A stretch of DNA of 48,309 nt from Flavobacteriales bacterium (GTDB lineage Bacteria > Bacteroidota > Bacteroidia > Flavobacteriales_D > Crocinitomicaceae). Position 1 is the first letter of the stretch. Every line of letters starts with the position of its first letter. The notes under the pieces were generated by a model. It had not been told where the DNA came from. It searched no databases and saw only the letters and a list, made by a program, of their open reading frames with translations. The stretch lies in contig CANLIL010000016.1 in the NCBI GenBank assembly GCA_947491305.1, positions 1-48,309 on the forward strand, given 5' to 3'. A program made the translations under genes and the position numbers. Shown here piece after piece: positions 35,027-36,753 of the stretch.

Positions 35027-36142
35027 ATGAGTGATTTTATTGTATCCGCTAGAAAATATAGACCGCAAACCTTCGACACAGTTGTTGGTCAACACGCTAT
35101 TACTTCTACATTAAAGAATGCAATAAAGACCGATCACTTAGCTCAAGCGTTTTTATTTTGTGGTTCTCGAGGAGTTGGAAAAACAACTTCTGCACGAATT
35201 TTAGCGAAAACAATTAACTGCTTTAACCGTTCTGAAAATATTGAAGCTTGCGACCAATGTGATTCTTGTCAATCGTTCAACACTGGAAATTCGTTGAATG
35301 TTTATGAATTAGATGCGGCTTCTAACAATTCAGTTGACGATATTAGAGCATTAATTGATCAAGTGCGCGTTGCACCACAATTAGGCAATCACAAAATATA
35401 CATCATCGATGAGGTTCACATGTTATCCAATCAAGCATTTAATGCTTTTTTGAAAACATTGGAAGAACCACCTAAGCATGCGATTTTCATCTTAGCAACG
35501 ACTGAAAAACACAAAATCATTCCTACAATTCTTTCGCGTTGTCAAATTTTTGATTTCAACAGAATCAAAGTAAAAGACATTGCAGATCATTTAGGAAGTA
35601 TTGCAATCAAAGAAGAAATTACAGCAGAACCTGAAGCGTTGCATTTAATTGCTCAAAAAGCAGACGGCGCATTACGTGATGCTTTATCTATATTTGATCA
35701 AATTGTAACATTTGTTGGAACGAATTTATCGTATAAAAGTGTCATAGAAAATTTAAATATTCTTGACTACGATTATTACTTCCGTATTATTGAATGCACT
35801 CAAAAAGAAGATATTCCTTCGGCTCTTTTATTGTTAAATGATATTTACGAAAAAGGATTTGATGGTCACAACTTTATTGTTGGATTGGCTGATCATTACC
35901 GTAACTTGTTAATTTGCAAAGACACACGCACGGCTAAATTATTAGAAGTTGGTGAATCTTTGGAACAGCGTTACATCGAACAATCAAAAGAGCTGGATGG
36001 TCACTTGATTTTACGTGCATTGGCTGTTTTGAGTAAAACAGATGTGGATTACAAAGCCTCTAAAAACCAACGTCTCTTGGTCGAAATGGCCTTGATGCAA
36101 TTGTGTTCTTTACTACAGGAGCAAGAAAAAAAAAAGGACTGA
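35027..36142 (+). CDS. dnaX: DNA polymerase III gamma/tau, zero-frame (gamma-like) product
   Basis: The 371-residue zero-frame product holds the AAA+ clamp-loader ATPase: Walker A GSRGVGKT (46-53), the four-Cys zinc module (INC...ACDQCDSC), Walker B IIDEVHML, sensor 1 TTEKH, the SRC arginine finger, and the lid and collar domains. It loads the sliding clamp with delta (holA, also in this window). The frame stops at TGA 36140-36142, right after ten A (36126-36135), while the next 205 codons of typical DnaX C-terminal sequence continue in the -1 frame. A shifted product would be 575 residues. Either programmed frameshifting or slippage, or a homopolymer error, explains this. Confidence 0.9.
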   Translation: MSDFIVSARKYRPQTFDTVVGQHAITSTLKNAIKTDHLAQAFLFCGSRGVGKTTSARILAKTINCFNRSENIEACDQCDSCQSFNTGNSLNVYELDAASNNSVDDIRALIDQVRVAPQLGNHKIYIIDEVHMLSNQAFNAFLKTLEEPPKHAIFILATTEKHKIIPTILSRCQIFDFNRIKVKDIADHLGSIAIKEEITAEPEALHLIAQKADGALRDALSIFDQIVTFVGTNLSYKSVIENLNILDYDYYFRIIECTQKEDIPSALLLLNDIYEKGFDGHNFIVGLADHYRNLLICKDTRTAKLLEVGESLEQRYIEQSKELDGHLILRALAVLSKTDVDYKASKNQRLLVEMALMQLCSLLQEQEKKKD

Positions 36143-36152
36143 CGGATCCCGT
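36117..36152 (+). other. Putative programmed frameshift / slippage signal in dnaX
   Basis: Parts in order: AGGAG, Shine-Dalgarno-like (36117-36121); an A10 run (36126-36135) that contains the slippery heptamer A-AAA-AAG in the zero frame (36130-36136), 8 nt after the AGGAG; a 5-nt spacer; a small hairpin ACGG (36142-36145) / CCGT (36149-36152) with a 3-nt loop; and the zero-frame stop at 36140. The same heptamer and similar spacings drive -1 frameshifting in E. coli dnaX. The hairpin here is weak (four pairs plus two wobbles). The A10 run could also cause RNA polymerase slippage. Confidence 0.6.
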
Positions 36153-36753
36153 TGAATTAATTCCGTTTAAAAATCAAAACCTTCGCGGCAAAGCAAGTCC
36201 TTCTGAAAAAGTAATAGCCCCACCCATTCGTCAGGAAGCTCCCACTCCAATCGTTGAACAAAAAATGGCAACGGTACCTACTGGACAATTGAATACTTCA
36301 ACACTTTCTATTAAGAACCTCATACAAAAGAAAGAAGAAATTGCTGAGATGCATTCTAAATCTCCTGAAAATTTACCAATGAATGATTATTCATTTGACC
36401 AAGTAAAAATGCTATGGAGACGATTTGCATTTGAAGTAAAAGAACGTGGAATGGAAACATTTTACAACGCAATGATCAAGCGCGAACCGAATCGAAAAGA
36501 ACAGGATTCTTATATAATGGATGTTGACAATCAAATTCAAGTGGATTACATCACTCCTCATCTACAAGAAATCAATCAATTTTTTAGAAAGGAATTGAAA
36601 AATTACGCATTCACCATTTCAATTGAACAAACTGGAAATCCTGAGGAAGAAATCAAATTCTTAACGGGCAAAGATAAATTTGCTGCTATGGCTCGTAAGA
36701 ATCCGAATATTCATACGTTGAAGACGTTGTTTAATTTGGATATAGAGTATTAA
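36136..36753 (+). CDS. dnaX: DnaX (tau) C-terminal domain, -1 frame continuation
   Basis: Read in the -1 frame from GGA at 36136, about 205 codons follow: a Pro-rich linker (roughly 1-70), then a folded domain (SFDQVKMLWRRFAFEVKERG..., LKNYAFTISIEQ) ending KFAAMARKNPNIHTLKTLFNLD, the ending I associate with full-length Bacteroidota DnaX. In tau this part should contact the polymerase and helicase. It has no good start codon of its own near the beginning; an ATG upstream at 36103 lies inside the zero-frame coding region and would give an unrelated N-terminus. So it is best read as one gene with the ATPase part. Confidence 0.8.
   Translation, partial: GLTDPVELIPFKNQNLRGKASPSEKVIAPPIRQEAPTPIVEQKMATVPTGQLNTSTLSIKNLIQKKEEIAEMHSKSPENLPMNDYSFDQVKMLWRRFAFEVKERGMETFYNAMIKREPNRKEQDSYIMDVDNQIQVDYITPHLQEINQFFRKELKNYAFTISIEQTGNPEEEIKFLTGKDKFAAMARKNPNIHTLKTLFNLDIEY

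Follow-up and report, generated by a model that had tools for sequence, protein, structure and literature searches.

A poly-A run at the gamma/tau boundary of a Flavobacteriales dnaX gene, a likely transcriptional slippage site with relatives across class Bacteroidia

Described dnaX systems and layout of the locus

Slippage on a run of nine A in Thermus dnaX is in print (PMC3711429, PMC1088944, PMC5009743), and slippage is expected from eight or nine A upward (PMC1088944, PMC3711429, PMC5009743). In Thermus thermophilus, the long A run lies late in the gene, close stops follow in the non-tau frames and tau is the unslipped product (PMC1088944, PMC5009743). Escherichia coli dnaX carries an in-frame A_AAA_AAG with a purine-rich element upstream, and gamma is the shifted product. 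For this type of site, conservation of the heptamer, of a Shine-Dalgarno (SD)-like stimulator and of a hairpin was reported in nine genera (PMC3711429). A further arrangement was described in 2013 in the GeneTack survey of Antonov (PMC3711429). There, in 17 genes of 12 genera, dnaX is made of two adjacent ORFs with a -1 step in the DNA and tau needs recoding. The step has exactly 10 A in nine of these genes. Transcriptional slippage was proposed, and slipping of A10 two-ORF dnaX genes in transcription is accordingly a published view (PMC3711429). Some of these A10 genera may be relatives of the organism considered here. The reversed case was repeated in PMC5009743, with the remark that, near 50% efficiency, one nucleotide can swap the roles of the two products.

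The window analysed here is a stretch of 48,309 nucleotides of a Flavobacteriales bacterium (assembly GCA_947491305.1, contig CANLIL010000016.1), with dnaX on the + strand (Table 1). The zero frame of this gene matched the NCBIfam profiles TIGR02397 (437 bits) and PRK14971 (689 bits), as well as DNA_pol3_delta2 and DNA_pol3_gamma3 in Pfam. The tau tail matched the C-terminal part of PRK14971 (profile positions 438-613 of 614, 65.9 bits) and, in a 33-row alignment with the tails of relatives (A1), was open and conserved. The gene thus has two ORFs, a -1 step, poly-A at the step and a tau that needs recoding, as in the survey of 2013. At the gamma/tau boundary, the run of at least nine A is followed by near stops, TGA 36140 and TGA 36153, and a gain of one A gives a product of 575 aa. 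As compared to T. thermophilus, where tau is unslipped and the run is A9, gamma is the unslipped product in the window and the run is A10. Gamma is also the unshifted product here, whereas it is the shifted one in E. coli. Since an arrangement with recoding for tau was published in 2013, the reversed organisation of the window is not new.

Table 1. Features of the dnaX locus, in window positions
Feature	Position	Strand	Remarks
Gamma-like product, dnaX zero frame	35027..36142	+	ATG 35027 to TGA; 371 aa; AAA+ domains I-III
AGGAG	36117..36121	+	8 nt between AGGAG and heptamer; GAG codon 36119-36121 alone conserved
A10 run, proposed RNA polymerase slippage site	36126..36135	+	Read from sequence; kept in relatives
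In-frame heptamer A_AAA_AAG, possible ribosomal slip site	36130..36136	+	Last G not conserved
Tau-specific C-terminal part	36136..36753	+	205 codons and TAA (36751-36753), -1 frame
Gamma stop TGA, closes zero frame	36140..36142	+	Read from sequence
Weak predicted hairpin	36141..36167	+	6 bp, 15-nt loop; conservation not above chance
Third-frame stop TGA (run shortened by one A)	36153..36155	+	Third-frame tail 9 codons

Re-reading of the sequence confirmed where the initial annotation had placed the run, the zero-frame TGA and the in-frame heptamer. The AGGAG upstream of the heptamer, the open DnaX C-terminal domain in the -1 frame and the product sizes of 371 and 575 aa were also right. The stop had been placed six nucleotides after the run; in fact, the TGA starts 4 nt after A10. 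The downstream hairpin is present, but as a weak prediction (energy about -5.6 to -5.9 kcal/mol).

Conservation of the run and registers of the tau tail

Within the genus, 26 genomes were searched. A true dnaX match was found in 23, and 22 loci reach the site; the matches of G005, G010 and G012, all weak, were taken as other AAA+ proteins. The run is A10 in 20 of the 22 loci and A11 in the two others. In 21 of the 22, the zero frame encodes gamma, and tau needs one more A (the +1A register). In L007 (A11) tau occupies a single frame; L005, a near twin, is split and has A10, showing that one extra A flips the register within the genus. Because 21 loci have the same split and all 22 have A10 or A11, a sequencing slip does not explain the split.

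Of 120 family genomes, 118 were matched, and all but three of these had an open frame of 358-448 codons. These exceptions are G013 (595 codons), with A11 and one open frame, and the partial matches G428 (277 codons) and G513 (226 codons). Judged from its open frame of 587 codons, G686 may likewise have one open frame with A11. The 66 distinct family loci outside a split branch described below carry A10 (59 loci) or A11 (7 loci). The +1A register is needed in 65 of them and not needed in one. The reversed roles put forward in the initial annotation, with the short form unshifted and tau requiring recoding, therefore hold for 21/22 genus loci and 65/66 family loci. The split at A10 is real and conserved.

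Two irregular copies were noted in the family. In L266 (G419), whose dnaX is normal in other respects, a stop interrupts the gamma part at codon 261; the row was masked there in the small tree, and the larger trees took the sequence before its stop only. G513:C11:15824-16513 is a dnaX piece with two stops. Both may reflect error or decay.

A total of 246 distinct dnaX copies were taken as class Bacteroidia: 66 from the family, 77 named and 103 from a class set made of same-class and same-order genomes, the window's own family being counted apart. The named copies came from the best 80 listed genome records, with class assigned from titles. Exact duplicates over 500 nt were left out, together with L021, whose contig ends before the run, and L067, whose contig ends just after A9. 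In 227 of the 246 copies, a run of at least nine A lies no more than 210 nt from the gamma/tau boundary. This count includes L090 (A13, tail cut by the contig end), which is outside the set of 226 copies used below. In the remaining 19, the longest run has 7 or fewer A, and exactly 8 A occurs in none. Contig ends truncate two of these 19, L078 and L083, and another, L051, has an A10 displaced to residue 453 with both other frames stopping within 7 codons. In 30 chosen genomes from 11 other families of the order, the run is A10 in 29 and A9 in one. In the other classes of the phylum, such a run was seen in 3 of 25 copies, the best-matching among those listed.

As a background, the coding strand of other ORFs (at least 150 codons) from 80 named Bacteroidota loci, 221,235 nt in all, contained five A9, one A10 and one T10. 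Upstream of the linker, dnaX itself (81,993 nt) contained three A8 and nothing longer. Long runs being so rare elsewhere, their occurrence inside one 210-nt stretch in 227/246 copies is more than chance.

Some copies of the wider set depart from this layout. L259-L261 have an A run (A8-A10 range) at residues 450-453, deep in the tau linker, with the other frames stopping after 38-45 codons. Two Bacteroidales copies without an A run, L092 (stop at codon 366, no long frame beyond) and L096 (stop at codon 383, +1 frame open for 250 codons), both counted among the 19, may represent an error or another split. In L060, L069, L072, L085 and L089 (titles Bacteroidales, Bacteroides, Bacteroidaceae), tau lies in one frame and there is no run of eight or more A past nt 900. 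These five may make tau alone, or gamma by another route.

The register of tau was determined for the 256 copies having both a run and a complete tail: zero frame for 114, +1A for 133 and -1A for 9. The codon phase of the run also varies among relatives. In a FastTree tree of 317 rows, the 259 run carriers (the 256 copies and 3 from other classes) require at least 25 register changes, at least five of which involve -1A. Label shuffles on the same tree (20 trials) needed 81 to 96 changes, as compared to the 25 observed, and the register is therefore strongly inherited. The occurrence of two directions in one family has been used as a sign of transcriptional slippage (PMC3711429).

In 226 copies, the two non-tau frames meet their first stop on average 2.9 and 4.0 codons beyond the run. 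Shuffling of the codons that follow gave means of 11.8 and 17.8 codons, the lowest of 300 shuffle means being 9.96 and 14.46. Two copies have a long non-tau frame, of 89 and 64 codons. What the sequences show directly is a conserved run, a tau tail in three registers and early stops in the two frames that do not encode tau. Class-wide spread, three registers and quantified stops extend the work of 2013. As far as the accessible parts of its text go, the survey does not mention class-wide spread, a third register or a run-less split branch (PMC3711429). No earlier report of class-wide spread, registers, quantified stops or split cistrons was found in the openly licensed literature.

Proposed transcriptional slippage and its alternatives

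Taken together, the observations make it likely that the window's dnaX contains a programmed poly-A site at the gamma/tau boundary, working by transcriptional slippage of the Thermus type. RNA polymerase would stutter on the ten A and release mRNAs with differing numbers of A. An mRNA with 10 A would lead to the near stop and to a gamma-like clamp-loader subunit of 371 aa. An mRNA with 11 A would be read in the -1 frame to give tau, 575 aa long, and 8 or 14 A would likewise lead to tau. Where the run has 9 or 12 A, translation would stop a few codons beyond it, giving another gamma-like product. To judge from the compared sequences, the slip probably occurs in transcription instead of on the ribosome, and both proteins are probably made. 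Certain observations limit how far this goes: the register is not freely exchangeable, 65/66 family loci sharing one, +1A is far above -1A, and the counts are taken over related rows that are not independent.

The main rival, which we hold to be unlikely, is -1 programmed ribosomal frameshifting of the E. coli type on A_AAA_AAG, in which the two products swap roles. The TGA would stop the majority of ribosomes, yielding gamma, and the rest would slip back one base and yield tau. In the window itself, a -1 slip on A_AAA_AAA or A_AAA_AAG is possible; the in-frame heptamer, an AGGAG at 8 nt and a weak hairpin are all present, and reversed cases have been treated as ribosomal frameshifting candidates (PMC5009743). 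The two mechanisms differ in what they demand of the sequence. Slippage fills all three frames, so that every non-tau frame should end fast, whereas a ribosomal -1 shift requires this of one frame only. Both non-tau frames are constrained and stop early, which supports slippage. Moreover, although the window fits a -1 shift, nine relatives need the opposite direction (-1A), and a -1 ribosomal slip cannot serve those nine.

The elements of an E. coli-like signal were then compared among relatives. AGGAG is found in 11 of the 22 genus loci. Directly after the run, the 22 loci have T (11), C (7) or G (4), and class-wide this base is G in 91, C in 78 and T in 57 of 226 copies; the in-frame A_AAA_AAG of the window is therefore not kept in relatives. 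The 60 nt that follow the run show near-chance folding, with a mean z of -0.34 against mononucleotide shuffles (226 copies). An Rfam search of 35900-36400 returned three chance-level matches up to E 10 and no dnaX element; Rfam presumably includes one of such kind. The lack of conservation of AGGAG, of the heptamer's final G and of the hairpin favours transcriptional slippage, and sets the locus apart from the E. coli type with its three conserved elements.

The region upstream of the run is less uniform in what it suggests. SD-like cores 3-22 nt upstream of the run occur in 41% of family loci as compared to 12% of background windows, and in 24% as compared to 11% outside the family. Two codons before the run, a Glu codon is GAG in 90 cases and GAA in 10, while elsewhere in these genes GAG occurs 1468 times and GAA 3216 times. 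In the family alone, the same codon (window 36119-36121) is GAG in 60 loci versus GAA in 3. The enriched cores and the GAG preference speak for ribosomal frameshifting, and slippage alone accounts for neither; the GAG preference may represent a ribosomal or a polymerase-pausing element. On the other hand, pairing of the upstream region with the 16S tail (anti-SD) is only slightly better than that of random CDS (-4.3 versus -3.6 kcal/mol), and SD sequences reportedly go unrecognised by the ribosomes of Bacteroidia (PMC9976891). Thus, the idea that AGGAG is a functional site gains from the enriched cores and GAG, and loses from its presence in half of the genus loci and its near-random pairing. 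As a conserved E. coli-type signal, AGGAG with the hairpin was rejected on the grounds of conservation, folding, Rfam and anti-SD pairing, and this part of the initial annotation is not supported. A scan of 30 loci from the 31 tRNA matches listed contained no tRNA-Lys, with 150 of 272 candidates scored, so that it says nothing about one or two tRNA-Lys in the genome; a typed pattern was also without match.

Separate translation of the tail from its own start codon, leaving gamma and a free tau tail in the window, is highly improbable. A GTG at 36103 does open the frame of the tail, and a comparable arrangement seems to occur in one branch of the family. However, 12 codons separate this GTG from the stop downstream of it, and further genus loci, L010 and L011 for example, lack it. 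No ATG, GTG or TTG occurs within six codons of the stop in 63/65 family loci, nor in the tau frame of 120/123 +1A copies, and the A run is retained instead. An internal start codon in the window was therefore rejected.

An assembly error (a true A11 with one frame) or a real frame-breaking mutation with tau lost is the least probable reading: the draft genome has 88 contigs, homopolymers are error-prone and G013, perhaps with G686, does have A11 and one frame, but the split is shared across genus and family and the tau tail remains open and conserved, and we rejected both sequencing error and pseudogene.

A run-less branch of the family and the tau tail

Sixteen family genomes lack a slippery run, the longest A stretch in their linker being 5-7. 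They belong to five genus codes (g183, 4; g187, 1; g190, 9; g198, 1; g199, 1), and the loci are L267, L271, L273, L280, L281, L283, L304-L311, L336 and L337. In a 62-row tree, these loci group with L282, which keeps A10 (SH-aLRT 99), and the fork is not resolved further; a larger tree gives two changes for the split state. We infer that the direction of change was loss of the run. Gamma ends at about residue 355-373 in this branch, the junction lying at about residue 355-375, and the tau tail is still open in the -1 frame. The tails are orthologous to the others: four that were scanned scored 62 to 81 bits with PRK14971, and the branch is represented in alignment A1. They are under purifying selection where dS could be estimated, for instance between L309 and L311 (dN 0.016, dS 0.47); dS was saturated in 5/8 pairs, and since the N-terminal parts of L309 and L311 are identical, rows are not independent.

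At the junction, stop and start overlap as ATGA in L308, GTGA in L337 and TAATG in L281. The other 13 of the 16 have an ATC codon beside the stop, ATC accounting for 33/205 Ile codons in the rest of the tails. In L267, L305 and L271, a very strong SD (-13 to -13.9 kcal/mol) lies 4 nt before this ATC. The SD of rpsU is reported to have an energy below -13 (PMC9976891), and the three loci are near that range, though another energy routine was used. No slippery site was seen by eye in the short overlap of L273, L283, L309 and L311. We give an even chance to the idea that slippage was replaced in this branch by two translationally coupled cistrons, partly AUC-started, encoding gamma and a free tau tail without a covalently joined tau. 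Against it, 13/16 loci are without a canonical start codon at the stop, and an in-frame A_AAA_AAG in L267, L271 and L305 could permit a -1 shift. In addition, Ile at the junction column is also found in L282, so that the codon may have been retained for the sake of the protein sequence.

Replication research has long asked if gamma is required or if tau alone suffices. Controversy over the need for gamma as compared to tau is mentioned in PMC5009743. Much of one bacterial class appears to hard-wire both forms. Repeated shifts of the tau tail between the three registers, with retention of the run and of both early stops, constitute natural evidence that both forms are wanted. Run-less genomes and the apparent two-cistron branch would offer natural tests of whether gamma, and a joined tau, are required. 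For annotation, a plain ORF call cuts off the tau tail in the window's family.

The tail itself gave no family in a Pfam scan, and a profile search against the PDB gave a weak match at best (E 0.038). A structure model of the tail had a mean pLDDT of 75.9. Compared with the PDB, it had no match at E 0.001 or below, the best being chain B of 4tps (entry: SirA with DnaA domain I) at E 0.041. A literature search found no published connection between DciA and DnaX. Over window 36337-36750 (residues about 68-205), the predicted fold weakly resembles DnaA domain I and DciA entries, a kind of resemblance that replisome adaptor domains show.
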